From Candidatus Solibacter sp. (GTDB lineage Bacteria; Acidobacteriota; Terriglobia; Bryobacterales; Bryobacteraceae), in contig JANYAH010000322.1 of the NCBI GenBank assembly GCA_025361425.1, positions 1 through 38,034 on the forward strand: a stretch of DNA of 38,034 nt, in the 5' to 3' direction. A program made the position numbers and the translations under genes. Under the pieces are notes generated by a model that was given only the letters and a program-made list of their open reading frames with translations, was not told where the DNA came from and made no database searches. Positions 31,158-38,034 of this stretch are shown one piece after another; within the stretch, counting starts at the first letter, position 1, and every line of letters begins with the position of its first letter.

Positions 31158-31691
31158 ATGAAAACCATTTTGATCGGTACCGGAGTGCTCATCGCCGCGG
31201 CGTGTCTAGCTTCCGCCGAAACCAAGAGCGGCATCACGGAATCCGTCGCCATCGGCGGCAAGACCATCAGCATCAAGTATTCCGCGCCCGCGGTGAATGG
31301 GCGCGTGGGGAAGCTATTCGGCAAGGACGGCACCATCGGCTCGGATAAGAACTATCCTGTCTGGCGCGGGGGTGCGAATGCGGCTACCGCGTTGCATACG
31401 GATGCCGATCTCGACCTGGGCGGGCTAGCGGTGCCGAAGGGCGACTACACGCTGTTCATCAACCTGGCGAATCCGGCGAGTTGGGAGCTGATCGTCAATA
31501 AGCAGACCGGCCAATCGGGGCTGGCGTTCGATGCCAAACAGGAACTGGGCCGCGTCAAGATGACCGTGGGCAAGCCGCCGGCCCTGGTGGAACAGTTGAA
31601 GTACACGCTGTCCACCGCGGGCGGGAACAAAGGCAAACTCGAGTTGGCCTGGGAGAACGTGGTGGCGTCGGTGAATTTTACCGTCAAGTAA
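31158..31691 (+). CDS. exported DUF2911 protein
   Basis: This 177-aa protein starts at ATG 31158, chosen for its AAGAGGAAC ribosome site and because the signal peptide (MKTILIGTGVLIAAACLASA) begins there. Family features: VWRGGANAATALHTDADLDLGG, PKGDYTLFINLANP and WELIVNKQTGQSGLAFDAKQELGRVKM, typical of DUF2911, a beta-rich domain of unknown function common in Acidobacteriota and Bacteroidota. It ends FTVK. It is probably a stand-alone gene, convergent with the sphingolipid-type cluster 178 bases away. Confidence 0.9.
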   Translation: MKTILIGTGVLIAAACLASAETKSGITESVAIGGKTISIKYSAPAVNGRVGKLFGKDGTIGSDKNYPVWRGGANAATALHTDADLDLGGLAVPKGDYTLFINLANPASWELIVNKQTGQSGLAFDAKQELGRVKMTVGKPPALVEQLKYTLSTAGGNKGKLELAWENVVASVNFTVK

Positions 31692-31869
31692 GGGCTGCGT
31701 CAGACGCGCGAGAACCAGCCGCGGCGAGGGGCATACCGTGTCGGTGATGGTGCAACCGTACCACTCGGCATGCTCCAACCGAGGGTACGAGTCACGGCTG
31801 CTGCCGACAACGGGGGCGCATGCCGTTTCAGGGTACGGGTTCCTCGCATTTGCGCGAACCCCCTCTGGC

Positions 31870-33108
31870 TTAGCGCTCGATGCCGAGTTCTTCGGCCACC
31901 CTTACCAGGGTAGTAACCAGGCGGTCCACATGCTTTTCAGTGTGCGCCGCGGTGCACGAAATGCGCAGCAGGTTTTGCGTCGCGCCCGGACGCAGCACCG
32001 GATTGATGTAGATGCCTTCTTCGAGCAATCGCTTGCACAGGCGGCACAGATCGAGTTCATCCTGGATCACCACCGGCACGATCGCCGTCTCGCCGGGGAG
32101 CACGTTGAACTCGCGCGAGCGCAGCTCATCACGCAGTAACTGCGCGATGCGCAGCAGATGCACGCGGCGCTCCGGTTCCTTCTTCATAATCTGCAACGCC
32201 TGCCCCGCCGCAGCCAGGCTAGCCGGCGGCAGACTCGCCGAAAACATGAACGGCCGCGCCGTATGCTTCAGGTAATCCACTACCGAACGCTCGCCGGCAA
32301 TAAAGCCGCCCACCGATGCCAGTGACTTAGAGAACGTACCCATCACGATATCGACGTCGTCCAGCACGCCCAAATGTTCGGCCGCGCCCGCGCCCGTGGC
32401 GCCCAACACGCCGATGCCGTGCGCCTCATCCACATACGTGCGCGCTCCGTAGGGCTTGGCCAGCTTCATGATGCCTCGCAGGTCGGCGATATCGCCTTCC
32501 ATGCTGAACACGCCTTCGCTGACGATGAAGATCTTTTCTTCCGGCGGGCAGTTTTCCAGGCTCCGCTCGAAGTGATCCATGTCGTTGTGCCGGAAACGGA
32601 CCGTGCGCGCGGACGACCGCAATGCGCCTTCCACCAGACTGGCGTGCAGGTTGTGGTCGCAGATCATCACGTCGCCCTTCTCGGTCAACGCGCTGAGTGC
32701 CCCGTAGTTGGCCTGGAACCCGGTGCCGAAAGTAATCGCGGCTTCTTTATGGACGAATGCGGCGAGTTCGGCTTCCAGCTTGACGTGAACATCCAGCGTG
32801 CCGTTCAGAAGGCGAGATCCGCTGCAGCCACTGCCGTACTTCTTGACGGCTTGCACGGCGGCTTCCTTCACCTTTGGATGGGTGATCAGGTCCAGGTAAT
32901 CGTTGGACCCGAACATCAGTACTTTGCGGTGCCCCATGCGCACTTCGCCAGCCCCACACCCTTCGCGGTCCCCAAAAACCTCGAAGTACATGTATAGCCC
33001 TGCGGACTGCAAGTCACTCGGACGAGTGAAATTTCGGCATTTCTCGAAGATGTCGTTCGAGCCGCTACCCTTTTTTTTGCCGGTGATGTCGCTAGTCGAT
33101 ACGCGCAT
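31870..33108 (-). CDS. spt: serine palmitoyltransferase-like alpha-oxoamine synthase
   Basis: This 412-aa PLP enzyme of the alpha-oxoamine synthase family would condense an amino acid with an acyl thioester. For serine palmitoyltransferase the product is 3-ketosphinganine. I chose ATG 33108, with GAGG from the upstream stop region before it. Motifs: MFGSNDYLDL, GSGCSGSRLLNGTLDVHVKLE, TYVDEAHGIGVLG, and the PLP Lys261 in GTFSKSLASVGGF, which is the SPT-type version. BioF and Kbl are alternatives by sequence alone. The gene is the last of a cluster containing an acyltransferase, a reductase and an Aur1-like enzyme, which favours SPT. I see no ACP or acyl-ACP synthetase in the window. Confidence 0.8.
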   Translation of the reverse strand: MRVSTSDITGKKKGSGSNDIFEKCRNFTRPSDLQSAGLYMYFEVFGDREGCGAGEVRMGHRKVLMFGSNDYLDLITHPKVKEAAVQAVKKYGSGCSGSRLLNGTLDVHVKLEAELAAFVHKEAAITFGTGFQANYGALSALTEKGDVMICDHNLHASLVEGALRSSARTVRFRHNDMDHFERSLENCPPEEKIFIVSEGVFSMEGDIADLRGIMKLAKPYGARTYVDEAHGIGVLGATGAGAAEHLGVLDDVDIVMGTFSKSLASVGGFIAGERSVVDYLKHTARPFMFSASLPPASLAAAGQALQIMKKEPERRVHLLRIAQLLRDELRSREFNVLPGETAIVPVVIQDELDLCRLCKRLLEEGIYINPVLRPGATQNLLRISCTAAHTEKHVDRLVTTLVRVAEELGIER

Positions 33109-33113
33109 GGTCC

Positions 33114-34229
33114 TCAGTTCCAATTATAGATTCGATATGTCTTGTACCGCGTGGCTCCCATCACTTCTAGTGAGCGATTCATGAGCACGTTGTCTTCAAG
33201 AATCCAGGACATCTCGCAGTCGCCAAACCCCAATTTCCGTGCGTTGCGGACCAACGTGGCGTAGAAACCCGCCGCGAGACCCGCAGCCCGGTACTCCTCG
33301 ACGACCCCGAGGGCCAGGACCCGTACATTTTTGATCAAACGTTGATGATACAGGATTTTGAGCAGCCCCGTGGGGAACAGGCTTCCGTTGGCCGGTTTCA
33401 GCGCCTGATTCACGTCTGGTAATGCCAGCGCAAACCCCACTACCCGGTCCCCCACTTCTCCGATCAGTACCAGATCGGGCTTGAGAATCATCTTCATCTC
33501 TTTGCCCATCAGAAAAAACTCTTCCCGCGTCATCGGGATGAATCCCCAGTTGCGCTGCCACGCCGCTCCGTAGATTTCCCAGATGCGCTCTACATCGTTC
33601 TGGAAGTCCTTCATGTTGATGGGACGAACGCGCACTCCGGTAGTCTTTAAGACTTTTTCGGCTACGCGATCGATCTTTTTCATTTCGATCGTGTTGGCGT
33701 TGCTCAGGTAGGCGTAGAGATCCCTAGCCTTGGATAGGCCCACCCGATCCATCAGCCCGGGGTAATACCGGGGGTTGTAGCTAGTCATCACCATCGGCGC
33801 AGAATCAAATCCGTCCACCAGCATGCCGCATTCGTAGTTGGTGGATGGGTTCACCGGGCCGCGCAGGAACGTCGCGCCCCGATCGAAGACCCATTGCCGC
33901 GCCCGGTCGAGCAGCGCGCGTGCCACATCCACGTTGTCTACACTCTCGAAGAAGCCGAAAAAACCGGCGTTCTCGCCATGGAACCGATTATGGTTCCGAT
34001 CGATGATGGCGGCCACGCGGCCCACCACCCTGCCACCCTCCCGCGCCAGGAAGAACTCCGCTTCCGCGTTGGCATAAAAAGGATGCTTCTCGCGGTCCAA
34101 TAACTCTTTGACCGCGATGCGCAATTGCGGCACCCAATACGGATCGTTACGGTAGATTGTGAAAGGCAGTTCCACAAACTCATTCAGCGCCTTCTTGTCT
34201 TCTACTGCCTTGACTTCAATACCTACCAA
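33114..34229 (-). CDS. GNAT-fold N-acyltransferase, candidate bacterial ceramide synthase (bCerS)
   Basis: This 371-aa soluble protein opens with IEVKAVEDKKALNEFVELPF and YRNDPYWVPQL, the start of a family I know from E. coli YghO-like and Caulobacter bCerS-like proteins. Middle and end segments include FFLAREGGRVVGRVAAIID (GNAT beta strand), GFFGFFESVD, RGPVNPSTNYECGMLVDGFD, and the acetyl/acyl-CoA loop VLALGVVEEYRAAGLAAGFYATLVRNARKLG. In Caulobacter bCerS N-acylates the sphingoid base or its 3-keto form. The TTG start follows the PAP2 stop with no gap and has AGGGG about six bases before. The next gene downstream is spt. Substrate and assignment are inferred from context and resemblance. 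Confidence 0.6.
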   Translation of the reverse strand: MVGIEVKAVEDKKALNEFVELPFTIYRNDPYWVPQLRIAVKELLDREKHPFYANAEAEFFLAREGGRVVGRVAAIIDRNHNRFHGENAGFFGFFESVDNVDVARALLDRARQWVFDRGATFLRGPVNPSTNYECGMLVDGFDSAPMVMTSYNPRYYPGLMDRVGLSKARDLYAYLSNANTIEMKKIDRVAEKVLKTTGVRVRPINMKDFQNDVERIWEIYGAAWQRNWGFIPMTREEFFLMGKEMKMILKPDLVLIGEVGDRVVGFALALPDVNQALKPANGSLFPTGLLKILYHQRLIKNVRVLALGVVEEYRAAGLAAGFYATLVRNARKLGFGDCEMSWILEDNVLMNRSLEVMGATRYKTYRIYNWN

Positions 34230-35117
34230 TCATAGCCCCTTTGGAGACAGTTTTTGGTACAGCTTGGGTGCCGCTAAAATCAAAACGGCAGCCGTAATAA
34301 TCCCGGCCAGCAGGTCAACAGTATAGTGGTATCGAAGATAAACTGTAGCAAAAATGATGCATGGAGTGTAGGCCAAATAGATCCGGAACCACCGTTTCGA
34401 GACCATCCGGCTGCCCCACCACGCCAGGATGGTGAGTTCCGTGTGCCCGCTCGGGAAGCAATCATAATGAGCGGATTCCAGGCGGTCGAGGGCGCCTTGC
34501 ATGGTCTGAAACAACCATAAACCTTGCAGCGGGAAGTGCTGCAAATGTTTTAGAAGAAAGCGTGGCCCACGGGCTGGGACAAGGATATACCCGATATACG
34601 AGGTCAAAAATCCCAGCGCGATTAAGAAAGCATAATATTGGAAATCCCGCGTACGCCCCTTCCGCCACAGCACCCACGCGATATATAGTACGGCCGGTAT
34701 AAAAAGCGTGTAGATCGCTTGCAGAAGTTCGGTGAGCGCGGGCGTGTGAACGCGCTCCAGCCAGACGGACGGGTGCGCTCCCCAGATGCGGAAATCCAGA
34801 TCTGCCAACCATTGATCCGCATCCGAACTCCGCACCGCCGGTATAAACAGCGCCATCTCCTTGTAGCAGGCAGCGACGTAGGGCAGCGCATACCAGTTAC
34901 GGAAGCGCCACGAGGTGGCATTGGGCCGCTTCACCTGGTAGACGATCGCCGCGCCGCCAATCAGGTTGGCGGCCAGCAGGAGGAACGCGTCCGGCAGCGT
35001 GCTCCACCACCCCAGAATCACCACCACCGCGCCGGCAAAATAGGCGAGGATGACCTTGTCGATCGCCCAGAAGCGCGTGTCTGGTTTCAACAGGCCGGGC
35101 TTTAATACGTCAACCAA
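34230..35117 (-). CDS. Aur1/PAP2-like membrane enzyme, candidate phosphosphingolipid head-group transferase
   Basis: This 295-aa polytopic protein has about six helices, with the PAP2-type catalytic set in its second half: RGPRF, then CFPSGHTELT with His225, and RYHYTVDLLAG with His264 and Asp268. The layout resembles the inositol-phosphoceramide synthase (Aur1/PAP2_3) branch more than classical lipid-phosphate phosphatases, which have KX6RP at the first motif. Such enzymes transfer a head group from a phospholipid to ceramide. Here it lies between the epimerase (16-base overlap, TTG start) and the acyltransferase genes, so a role on ceramide is likely. A simple phosphatase remains possible. 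Confidence 0.65.
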   Translation of the reverse strand: MVDVLKPGLLKPDTRFWAIDKVILAYFAGAVVVILGWWSTLPDAFLLLAANLIGGAAIVYQVKRPNATSWRFRNWYALPYVAACYKEMALFIPAVRSSDADQWLADLDFRIWGAHPSVWLERVHTPALTELLQAIYTLFIPAVLYIAWVLWRKGRTRDFQYYAFLIALGFLTSYIGYILVPARGPRFLLKHLQHFPLQGLWLFQTMQGALDRLESAHYDCFPSGHTELTILAWWGSRMVSKRWFRIYLAYTPCIIFATVYLRYHYTVDLLAGIITAAVLILAAPKLYQKLSPKGL

Positions 35118-36067
35118 CCCGCCTCCTTATACCAGGCCAGCGTTGCGGCCAGGCCCTCATCCAGTGAAGTGGCAGCGACGAACCCGAGTTCCTGCGCGGC
35201 GCGCCCGGTATCGCAGGTCCACGCCATGCATCGCGCCTCGGCCATCTTGTCGCGCGAGATGATCCCCGGCCTGCCGCGTAACCGCGCCCAGATTTCCTCG
35301 CAGGCCCCCACCGCATTGGCCACGGCGAACGGCACCGTTACCACCCGCGGCGTGCGCGCCATGGTGCGTGCCGCCGCGGCCCCCAGTTGGCGCCACGATG
35401 CTGGTTTGGCATGCGCCAGGAAATACGCCCGCCCCGCTGCCCGTGGCGTACTGGCCGCGGCCAGCAAGCCCTCCACCAGGTCCTTGACGTAGATCGCGCT
35501 GAACCAGCGCTCGCCGCCGGAAATCTCCAGCACCAGCCCTTTGGAGATCGATTTCAGCAGTTGAAAGACATCCGTATCGCCTGGCCCGTATACCACCGGC
35601 GGCCTGACGATCACCGCATCCGGCGCCAGGCGGCGCACAACGCGCTCCGCCTCCAGCTTGGATTTCCCATAGTGCGACAGCGGGTGCGGTTCGGCGTCCT
35701 CCGCCAGCGGCGCGCCGGCCGTCGCCGGCCCCATCGCGGCCAGCGAGCTTACATGGACCAGACGCATCCCCCGCCCAACCATGGCGTGCGCCAGTAGCTC
35801 CGTAGCCCGTACATTGCCGGTGTAGTAGTCCCGCGGGTGCAGCGCTTTGGTGATGCCCGCCAGATGGATCACGACATCGGCCCCCCGCAGTGCCTCGGCA
35901 ACGCCCGCGCCGCTCGCCAGATCGCCGTAGACGGTCTCCACGCCCAGCGGCAGCAAGCGCGGCGCACGGGTGCGGCGTACCAGGGCGCGCACGGCCTCAC
36001 CCTTGGCGACGAACTTTTCCAACAGGTGCGTACCGATGAAGCCGGTACCGCCAGTGACCAGGGTCAT
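35102..36067 (-). CDS. NAD(P)-dependent epimerase/reductase, candidate ceramide reductase (CerR)
   Basis: This 321-aa extended SDR protein has the Rossmann motif TGGTGFIGTHLL (Gly6-Gly12), the catalytic Tyr133-x3-Lys137 (HYGKSK), and VIHLAGITKALHP and VRPPVVYGPGDTDVFQLL. This branch includes 'dihydroflavonol-4-reductase-like' and 3-beta-HSD-like enzymes, as does the Caulobacter CerR that reduces the 3-keto group of ceramide. I chose the ATG at 36067 because it overlaps the DUF3047 stop as ATGA and starts right at the family core; the longer version adds 54 unconserved residues. Its context with Spt and the acyltransferase supports CerR. Other sugar-epimerase roles are possible. Confidence 0.65.
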   Translation of the reverse strand: MTLVTGGTGFIGTHLLEKFVAKGEAVRALVRRTRAPRLLPLGVETVYGDLASGAGVAEALRGADVVIHLAGITKALHPRDYYTGNVRATELLAHAMVGRGMRLVHVSSLAAMGPATAGAPLAEDAEPHPLSHYGKSKLEAERVVRRLAPDAVIVRPPVVYGPGDTDVFQLLKSISKGLVLEISGGERWFSAIYVKDLVEGLLAAASTPRAAGRAYFLAHAKPASWRQLGAAAARTMARTPRVVTVPFAVANAVGACEEIWARLRGRPGIISRDKMAEARCMAWTCDTGRAAQELGFVAATSLDEGLAATLAWYKEAGWLTY

Positions 36068-36714
36068 TCCTGCAAAGCACTGCGGAACGCAACCTCGCCG
36101 AAATAACTCTCGGCGATGGTGCCCGTATGTTGGGAATTGATCTGGAGGCGCAAACCCGTCACGCGCGGCGCAGTCTTGCCATAGGCGCGCGCATAATCGG
36201 CGGCGATGTTGCGGCTCTCCGCGACCCACTTGTTCACTTCCGCGGCGCCGGATTGGCAGACCACGGCGAAAATATGCACCAACGGAATATTGCTGGCGCT
36301 TTGCATGGTTCCCTTGGGCGCGCTGCTATCCCAGATGTAGGTGAGAATCCGTTTATCGGAAAATGCTACCAGCACCTGGGCAGCCTGGTCGTCGGTAGAG
36401 GCGCGGCGAAAATCGCCTCCGCCCGGCAGTTGAGCCACCTTCCAGCGCCAAGTCAAAAAAGGCATCAGGGCGGGGTCCACATCCACCGGGTGCTGCAGCG
36501 CAAAGGAACTCTGGACGCTCTTCAGACGCAGGCAACTTTCGGTTTCTTTGCAGACAGAAATGTCGGGCTTGCCGTGGATCATCTTAATCTGCCAGTCCGC
36601 GGGCAGACGTCCCGAACCCCAATTTGCGGTATTCAAGACGATGAAAGCCAACTGCGAGGTACGTGCCTGGAATATGAAAATAAGAAAGCTACAGGCCAGC
36701 AGATACTTTTTCAA
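36064..36714 (-). CDS. exported DUF3047 protein
   Basis: This 216-aa protein starts at TTG, with AAGAGG four bases upstream. A signal peptide is present (MKKYLLACSFLIFIFQARTS). The mature part resembles DUF3047: WQIKMIHGKPDISVC, FLTWRWKVAQLPGGGDFRR, TDDQAAQVLVAFSDK, and LRLQINSQHTGTIAESYFGEV. The DUF is a beta-rich, probably ligand-binding fold of unknown function; two Cys (CKETESC) may form a disulfide. It heads the cluster and is coupled to the epimerase gene by ATGA. It could be a periplasmic lipid-handling protein, but that is speculation. Confidence 0.85.
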   Translation of the reverse strand: MKKYLLACSFLIFIFQARTSQLAFIVLNTANWGSGRLPADWQIKMIHGKPDISVCKETESCLRLKSVQSSFALQHPVDVDPALMPFLTWRWKVAQLPGGGDFRRASTDDQAAQVLVAFSDKRILTYIWDSSAPKGTMQSASNIPLVHIFAVVCQSGAAEVNKWVAESRNIAADYARAYGKTAPRVTGLRLQINSQHTGTIAESYFGEVAFRSALQE

Positions 36715-36945
36715 GGGACCTCTTACGCGCCGCCGTGCTGTTCACTACTATCGCATGAATGGCGTGGCTTTCGCCAGGGGCAATGGCTTCACCCTGATCC
36801 GTCGATAAGGAATGGGCCGCGGTGGTGGGTGGTAGATCAATGACTACGCCGAGGCCGGTAGATCGAGGTGGGGAGAGCGATGCCCGGGGACAGGGTGTGG
36901 AGTCTTTTCGCACCGGCGGGGTGAGCGGGCCGTTAAAATGAGCGG

Positions 36946-38034
36946 GTGCGCAAGTCCCCAAAGCCCTCCCCCACCGAGTCCCCACTGCTTTTCGAAGTCG
37001 ATCCCGAGCCGCTGCCGGAAGTTCTGACGGCGCTGGGTGGCGTGCCGCTGGTGGTACAAGCGTTCCGATCCCTGGGCTTGCCTGGACTGGTGAAGGAGCA
37101 CGTGCGGATCAAGGAGCGTCAGCGCGGCTACGACGAAGCCACGTTGGTGGAGAGTTTCGTGATCCTGAACGCGGTAGGGGGCGAGTGCCTCGATGACTTC
37201 GTGCGTCTGCGTGAAGATGCCGGTCTGAGCGAAATGGTGGGGCATCAGATGCCGTCTCCCTCGGTGGCGCGCAAGTTCCTGTACGAGTTTCACGAGGAAG
37301 CCAAGATCGAGGAGGCCAAGCAACAGCGCACGGCGGAGCAGATTGCCTACATACCTGAAGAAACGGAAGCGTTACGGGGACTGGGGCTGGTCAATCGCGA
37401 ACTGGTGCGGGAGTTGGGGCGGCGTTGCCCCGACCAGCGAATTGCCACGGTGGATCAGGATGCCACCATCATCGAGAGCAAAAAGCAGGAAGCCTTGCGG
37501 ACCTACGAAGGAGAGCGGGGGTATCAGCCGATGTTGGCGGTATGGGCCGAGATGAATGTGGTGTTGGCGGATGAGTTCCGGGATGGGAATGTGCCGGCGA
37601 TGATGTCGCCGTTAACATCCGCCAAACAGGCCTATGCGGCACTGCCGGAAACGGTGACGGAGTATTACTATCGGGGCGATTCGGCGAGCCACGAAAGTCA
37701 TTTAATCAACTGGCTGCGGAACCCGGAGCGGGAAGACGGTCCGCGGGGATTCATCGGGTTTGCGATCAGCGCGCGGATGAGCGAGGCGTTGCACAAGGCG
37801 ATCTTGAAGGTTCCCGAGGAAGGCTGGGAAATCTACGGAGAAGCGCCCACCAGGGAGATACGGGAATGCGCCGAGGTGAACTTTGTGCCGGCTGAGAAAT
37901 CGGAACATAAGGATACGCAGCCCCTACGATACGTGGCGATTCGGATTCGGCAGCGGCAGGAGACGTTGTTTGAGGATGGCAGCAAGGTGAAGCACTTTGC
38001 GGTGGTGACGAACCTTGGAGAGTGGAAAGCAGGA
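36946..38034 (+). CDS. IS1380-family DDE transposase, 5' part (runs off the window)
   Basis: 363 codons are open from GTG 36946 to the window end without a stop. TAA at 36934 closes the frame upstream, so the start is near here. The protein reads like an IS1380 (DDE_1/ISL3-related) transposase: N-terminal helical region (RIKERQRGYDEATLVESFVI, LNAVGGECLDDFVRLRED), first catalytic Asp in IATVDQDATIIESKK (Asp170/Asp172) and second in EYYYRGDSASHES (Asp245). IS1380 transposases are usually about 430-450 aa, so the missing third acidic residue and C-terminus lie beyond 38034. No interruption is seen. The left terminal repeat should be within about 36720-36940, but I cannot identify it without the right end. 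Confidence 0.85.
   Translation, partial: MRKSPKPSPTESPLLFEVDPEPLPEVLTALGGVPLVVQAFRSLGLPGLVKEHVRIKERQRGYDEATLVESFVILNAVGGECLDDFVRLREDAGLSEMVGHQMPSPSVARKFLYEFHEEAKIEEAKQQRTAEQIAYIPEETEALRGLGLVNRELVRELGRRCPDQRIATVDQDATIIESKKQEALRTYEGERGYQPMLAVWAEMNVVLADEFRDGNVPAMMSPLTSAKQAYAALPETVTEYYYRGDSASHESHLINWLRNPEREDGPRGFIGFAISARMSEALHKAILKVPEEGWEIYGEAPTREIRECAEVNFVPAEKSEHKDTQPLRYVAIRIRQRQETLFEDGSKVKHFAVVTNLGEWKAG

Follow-up and report, generated by a model that had tools for sequence, protein, structure and literature searches.

A compact five-gene candidate operon for phosphorylated ceramide synthesis in Candidatus Solibacter

Could bacteria of the order Bryobacterales make phosphorylated ceramides, and could a single operon supply the enzymes? 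Whether Acidobacteriota make sphingolipids is itself posed as a question in one study (PMC9969633). Here we analyze a stretch of 38,034 bases from the soil bacterium Candidatus Solibacter sp., which is the whole of one contig (C194, JANYAH010000322.1, GenBank assembly GCA_025361425.1) and is referred to below as the window; the genome bin it comes from measures 5.3 Mb and is estimated to be 95% complete with 3% contamination. On its minus strand, read from 36714 to 31870, the window carries genes for a DUF3047 protein, a short-chain dehydrogenase/reductase (SDR), a PAP2-type membrane enzyme, a GNAT acyltransferase and an Spt-like enzyme, all overlapping or abutting (Table 1). Taking family relations and gene order together, we think it likely that the five products form a short pathway ending in a phosphorylated (dihydro)ceramide. 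Its nearest named relative is found in Candidatus Solibacter sp. Chersky.14_27, with a GNAT 92% and an Spt 95% identical. With these genes and with named relatives among metagenome-assembled genomes (MAGs), the open question of sphingolipid production by these bacteria becomes directly testable, and the set is compact enough to ask whether a bacterial Aur1-type enzyme encoded beside a bacterial ceramide synthase (bCerS) could yield phosphoceramide with no need for a kinase of the kind that Caulobacter uses.

Table 1. Genes of the candidate operon in the window, in the order in which they are read
Feature	Position	Strand	Description
DUF3047 gene	36064..36714	-	first of the five genes; 216 aa, TTG start; PF11249, 110 bits
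CerR-like SDR/epimerase	35102..36067	-	321 aa, ATG start; PF01370; candidate ceramide/3-ketosphinganine reductase
Aur1-type PAP2_3 membrane enzyme	34230..35117	-	295 aa, TTG start; PF14378, 64 bits; candidate ceramide phospho-head-group transferase
bCerS-like GNAT acyltransferase	33114..34229	-	371 aa, TTG start; weak GNAT match, 29 bits; candidate bacterial ceramide synthase
Spt-like alpha-oxoamine synthase	31870..33108	-	412 aa (ATG at 33108) or 417 aa (TTG at 33123); last gene; Aminotran_1_2

From the enzyme families we infer the substrates and the order of steps. Spt would make 3-ketosphinganine from serine and a fatty acyl thioester. This base would be N-acylated to a keto-ceramide by the bCerS-like GNAT, and the CerR-like SDR would reduce the ketone, although these last two steps could be swapped. 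The Aur1-type PAP2 enzyme would then take a phospho-head group off a phospholipid and place it on the ceramide by means of a His-His-Asp triad, with the DUF3047 protein as an exported accessory factor. The ceramide core of this scheme is a known bacterial pathway and its clustering is likewise known. What is new is the operon with its gene order, an Aur1-type gene between those for CerR and bCerS, a DUF3047 gene and no dedicated acyl carrier protein (ACP) or ACP synthetase gene. Among the papers listed by a literature search, none dealt with Bryobacterales sphingolipid genes; the search reached few subscription papers and no supplements, and earlier listings for Acidobacteriota are possible.

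The last gene of the operon encodes a serine palmitoyltransferase (SPT)-like enzyme. Its best NCBIfam match is SerpalmtaseCFB (456 bits), followed by bioF (375 bits) and Kbl-type models (at most 342 bits), and the solved structures closest to it are those of the Sphingobacterium SPT (8guh/3a2b, 345 bits), the remaining ones reaching about 250 bits or less. Long branches met in a first tree, and 13 of its 72 rows were dropped; the resulting careful tree (59 rows) places the window Spt in a 48-row clade with support of 98/97, together with the SPTs 3a2b (Sphingobacterium) and 2jg2 (Sphingomonas), while BioF, Kbl and CFAT fall outside. The CFAT clade was identified through one member, a 567-bit match to the solved CFAT 28eh. 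The enzyme carries the pyridoxal-phosphate lysine motif GTFSKS and, in its N-terminal part, the motif G[SA]RxxNG[TSN], which was picked after the alignment had been seen. All but one of the 63 rows of the SPT clade, of which four are duplicates, have this second motif, and none of 13 other rows does. In the careful tree the window family lies closest to a Sphingomonas/E. coli pair (92/90) that is itself long-branched; by contrast, the best family model and the best PDB match are of the Bacteroidetes type. Taibaiella helva (G160) has two Spt-type genes (loci L177 and L129), each 44% identical to the window Spt.

The GNAT acyltransferase is homologous over its full length to YghO, with 32.4% identity across 370 positions to the protein of E. 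coli K-12 (E 4e-73) and 33% identity to that of BL21. Searching named genomes with an alignment of the GNAT gave at least 567 confirmed relatives, and the best 80 loci were used to count neighboring genes, with thresholds of 100 bits for SDR and 50 bits for PAP2. Since 13 of these 80 named loci are shorter than 7 kb, absences are weak there and the counts are lower bounds. An Spt-profile match occurs in 54/80 loci, Spt with SDR in 41/80 and Spt with both SDR and PAP2 in 14/80; without the 11 loci of Bryobacterales type (L097-L107), the figures are 43/69, 32/69 and 5/69. Of those 43 Spt matches, 42 belong to the SPT clade of the first tree, the other (L120) being a fragment too short to place, and the GNAT can therefore be called a regular companion of Spt. 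The Spt proteins of the Sphingobacterium GNAT loci group with the solved Sphingobacterium SPT. The GNAT and SDR trees are quick trees with many open forks; in the former, from which 20 loci were omitted for thinning and in which two rows (L067, L069) were too short, YghO lies inside one large family, and three GNATs of the order (26-29% identity) lie outside it with weak support (79). The initial annotation of this DNA had taken the acyltransferase for a candidate bCerS, and this reading is supported by the homology to YghO of the BL21 ceramide cluster and to GNATs encoded close to Spt in Sphingobacterium and many phyla. The NCBIfam matches include no model for bCerS or CerR. One locus (L156), on a contig titled Williamsia sp. 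(Actinomycetota), has an Spt, a GNAT and an SDR that all fall among those of Bacteroidota, and probably stems from a mislabelled bin.

The SDR is related to the epimerase of the BL21 cluster (27.5% identity, E 1e-30) and carries the motifs TGGTGFIG and YxxxK. In the SDR tree it belongs to a 40-row clade, with a support of 91 in the Shimodaira-Hasegawa-like approximate likelihood-ratio test (SH-aLRT), together with SDRs of GNAT loci and the BL21 epimerase, and six SDR paralogues from its own genome fall outside that clade.

For the PAP2 protein, which the initial annotation had guessed to be Aur1-like, fold and full-length profile comparisons strengthen the guess. The structure model (predicted local distance difference test score, pLDDT, 91.9) has two AUR1 structures as its top Foldseek matches, the only ones with E below 0.001, and VIA-align gives a Z of 19.8 over 260 residues at 3.6 A for 9vj4 and of 19.3 over 271 residues at 4.0 A for 9ivc, both AUR1. 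The next folds are LpxE (Z 15.9 over 160 residues) and PgpB (Z 13.9). When 22 PAP2 proteins encoded in loci of this GNAT are combined into a profile, its alignment to AUR1 spans positions 13-282 of 293 (E 2.5e-7), whereas its alignments to PgpB, LpxE and acid phosphatases are confined to the C-terminal third. The catalytic triad (His225, His264, Asp268) is aligned to that of AUR1 and is invariant in the 22 sequences, as are, among others, D101, Y136, P181, G184, P185, F221, P222 and S223. The protein thus resembles fungal AUR1/inositol phosphorylceramide synthase in full-length fold, profile and His-His-Asp residues, but differs in that its gene adjoins a bCerS-like gene and in that identity in the fold alignments is 18-19%. 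Because of the full-length match to AUR1, and because the Bacteroides AUR1 homologue BT_1522 is proposed as a phosphoinositol-dihydroceramide synthase (PMC9246714), we read the PAP2 protein as a candidate ceramide phospho-head-group transferase. It could instead be a phosphatase acting on ceramide-1-phosphate, phosphatidic acid or a prenyl phosphate, with the ceramide core of the proposal left intact: the PAP2 superfamily is rich in phosphatases, the catalytic residues are identical, two of the folds retrieved are LpxE and PgpB, and LpxE matches the PAP2 profile with an E-value like that of AUR1, in fact the lowest of all, over a shorter stretch. AUR1 and LpxE are consequently told apart by coverage and not by score, as their E-values are similar. 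However, only AUR1 is matched over the full length in both profile and fold, the phosphatases being matched by sequence in the catalytic third, and the PAP2 gene keeps its place beside the bCerS-like gene in nearly every locus of the order (see below), which makes a phosphatase rather unlikely in our judgment.

The identity of the head group was also considered. An inositol-phosphate synthase family gene (PF07994) is present in the same genome; as 142 of the 150 Bryobacterales genomes sampled have such a gene, it is no pointer to inositol. Of five CDP-alcohol phosphatidyltransferase genes in the genome, one scores above the pgsA cut-off and one above the pssA cut-off, and none of the five passes a phosphatidylinositol-phosphate synthase model. 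Inositol was therefore rejected as the indicated head group, though an inositol head group is possible.

How well does this arrangement hold within the order? In the sample of 150 Bryobacterales genomes, a GNAT match was found in 28, comprising 23 with an orthologue (at least 48% identity, the source genome included) and five with distant matches only; the distribution is patchy, with no match in the other 122. Of the 22 other genomes that have an orthologue, 16 show all five genes in the identical order, so the arrangement is not due to chance; three of these 16 (L051, L054, L058) have an Spt gene that is incomplete because the contig stops within it. Among the remaining six, one locus is truncated where its contig stops, one is missing the SDR alone, one has PAP2-GNAT with Spt adjacent (L060) and one has PAP2-GNAT with Spt on another contig (L061); the last two are discussed below. 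PAP2 adjoins GNAT in 21 of the 22 loci, and the exception is a contig end. A CerR orthologue lies elsewhere in the genomes G077 (52% identity) and G130 (54%).

Besides the LpxE match, several observations weigh against the proposed ceramide route. The window Spt scores below the curated SPT cut-offs (SerpalmtaseCFB 456 of 640 bits, SerpalmtaseBetaP 366 of 500, SerpalmtaseAlphaP 279 of 670); it is also below those of the bioF and Kbl models. The initial annotation had taken the enzyme as Spt-like, with a grouping with BioF or Kbl as the counter-case; the 98/97 clade goes against that counter-case, yet the approximately unbiased (AU) tests reject no alternative: on the full set, a grouping of the window family with BioF/Kbl (p 0.232) or with CFAT (p 0.343) is allowed, and on a set reduced by 12 more rows the grouping with Kbl still stands (p 0.054). 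Phylogeny alone is therefore not decisive for Spt. The low model scores, the allowed CFAT grouping and the long stem of the window family (length 1.19) inside the SPT clade would suit an enzyme whose substrate is alanine, glycine, cysteate or some other amino acid. The product would then be an N-acylated long-chain amine of the 1-deoxyceramide or sulfonolipid kind in place of a normal ceramide, and PMC11334938 names alanine as a substrate that Spt accepts and puts forward further amino acids. But the CFAT clade is separate at 98/97 and its checked members lack the motif that the window Spt has, and by established chemistry an Aur1-type phosphotransferase requires the free 1-hydroxyl that deoxy bases and sulfonolipids do not have. 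We accordingly regard such a product as improbable.

Other adverse observations concern the SDR and gene content. The SDR begins at its Rossmann motif, with neither an N-terminal extension nor an export signal, and its BL21 homologue starts alike; the Caulobacter CerR is periplasmic (PMC11087976). One genome (G086) keeps DUF3047-PAP2-GNAT-Spt, and no close CerR was found in that genome. Two further genomes, G137 (L063) and G037 (L064), both 99% complete, keep PAP2-GNAT without an Spt or CerR orthologue: the oxoamine synthases that come nearest to Spt in them share 40% and 39% identity with it and have GAVRTITGT and GGVRMLTGT where the Spt motif would be. The ceramide route leaves these two genomes unexplained, and they would fit a PAP2-GNAT pair that by itself makes up the functional unit and has a different acceptor, with Spt and CerR added in most lineages and dispensable for the pair. 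The two GNATs form a sister pair in the tree, however, and may reflect one event compatible with later loss, and Spt shares the locus with GNAT in 43 of the 69 loci outside L097-L107. We consider a pair with another acceptor very unlikely and retain the route to a phosphorylated ceramide as our reading of the operon.

DUF3047 is mentioned in one paper, as a family without known function. In the model of the operon protein (pLDDT 64.8), a hydrophobic N-terminal helix (residues 2-19) that resembles a secretion signal is followed by strands in a predicted beta-sandwich, and the protein is probably exported. Among its top fold matches are ciliary doublet microtubule proteins, carbohydrate-binding modules and also an assembly intermediate of complex I, which look like one common jelly-roll type; given a weak model and many jelly-roll matches, no function is assigned from structure. 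The family hidden Markov model (HMM) found no DUF3047 in the 69 GNAT loci outside L097-L107. A tie between DUF3047 and CerR was considered and not borne out, as each occurs without the other: G086 has DUF3047 and no close CerR, and L102 and L105 have CerR and no DUF3047. In the two genomes with CerR elsewhere, no DUF3047 was found within 1.5 kb on either side of CerR. A bolder version of the proposal is that Bryobacterales have an independent way to phosphoceramides, of Aur1 type and encoded in a single operon. It would be a bacterial counterpart of the fungal pathway, with a firm genetic tie between head-group transfer and N-acylation and with DUF3047 as an exported factor dedicated to handling ceramide; we consider this version unlikely.

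Comparison with characterized systems separates what is shared from what is particular to this operon. In Caulobacter crescentus, according to two studies, the genes are CC_1162 (spt), CC_1154 (acyltransferase), CC_1164 (epimerase) and the kinase CC_1160 (PMC11324152; PMC9386255). There, spt and the epimerase gene sit with ACP and acyl-ACP synthetase genes, the acyltransferase gene lies at a distance of eight genes, the whole region comprises 17 genes in four operons and two cistrons, and the head group is made through a ceramide kinase and other genes (PMC11324152). The statement of the initial annotation that the Caulobacter genes are not in such tight order is consistent with this picture of one region that is not one tight operon. 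Set against the published description, the present operon shares the roles of Spt, acyltransferase and reductase and, as the product we would expect, a phosphorylated ceramide, but has no ACP, ACP synthetase or kinase gene and has an Aur1-type gene.

The E. coli BL21(DE3) cluster comprises yghO, a fatty acyl-AMP ligase gene, an epimerase gene, an acyl carrier protein gene, spt, lptG and lptF. Its three core enzymes are homologous to those of the window (39% identity for Spt; GNAT and SDR as above), but it has its own ACP, ligase and transport pair, yghO is divergent from spt, and no gene in the stretch viewed is annotated as PAP2-type. PMC9386255 proposes ECD_02850 and ECD_02852 of E. coli BL21 as N-acyltransferase and keto-sphinganine reductase; we take these to be yghO and the cluster epimerase, matching them by position because the locus tags displayed are newer ones.

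Tight clustering of the three core genes, which the initial annotation had treated as special, turned out to be common, with Spt in the GNAT locus in 43/69 loci and SDR as well in 32/69, and PMC11334938 describes ceramide core genes as often clustered in bacteria. Spt, GNAT and SDR are adjacent on one strand, as in the window, in Sphingobacterium, Dyadobacter, Runella, Rufibacter, Taibaiella and many MAG phyla. The GNATs of the five named genera are 43-48% identical to that of the window; their gene order is Spt-GNAT-SDR as opposed to SDR-PAP2-GNAT-Spt here, and no DUF3047 was found in theirs. An Aur1-like gene (at least 50 bits), present in the window operon, occurs in 10 of the 69 loci outside L097-L107. 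The adjacency of Spt, GNAT and SDR in Rufibacter, Taibaiella, Runella, Sphingobacterium and Dyadobacter (L124, L129, L135, L152, L161, L162, L172) contrasts with PMC11334938, according to which the three genes are not close together in sphingolipid-producing Bacteroidota.

Reading of the junctions on the sequence bears out the close packing of the five minus-strand genes as initially annotated. The DUF3047 stop and the SDR start share ATGA (36064-36067), 16 bases are common to the SDR end (35102) and the PAP2 start (35117), the PAP2 stop (34230) meets the GNAT TTG start (34229) with zero gap, and a gap of 5 bases separates the GNAT stop (33114) from the Spt ATG (33108), or an overlap of 10 bases joins the two genes if the alternative TTG (33123) is used. 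Sequences resembling ribosome-binding sites precede PAP2 (AAGGAGG) and GNAT (AAAGGGG). Promoter-like sites in 31600-37050 number 2 against 2.2 expected in shuffles, and since they do not exceed chance and the junctions are tight, a single transcription unit for all five genes is likely. Since the five genes abut, there is also no room for a further gene: none of the five encodes an ACP or acyl-ACP synthetase (no search was made for further copies in the rest of the genome), and the operon thus lacks the ACP and acyl-ACP synthetase genes beside spt that mark the Rhodobacterial (ACP-dependent) type of ceramide cluster. Judged from gene content, the self-contained phosphosphingolipid pathway suggested by the initial annotation is a putative one.

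A second copy of the operon lies on another contig of the same bin (L003:9300-12792, contig C214), with 88.6% DNA identity, a broken PAP2 frame and an SDR cut by the contig end. The long similarity stops where the operon stops, and a nearby carboxylase gene has a 92% twin on C106 in a different setting; this copy may come from a related strain in a bin with some contamination rather than from a duplication. About 230 bases upstream of the DUF3047 gene of the window, and divergent from it, an IS1380-type transposase gene on the plus strand (36946-38034) is cut by the contig end.

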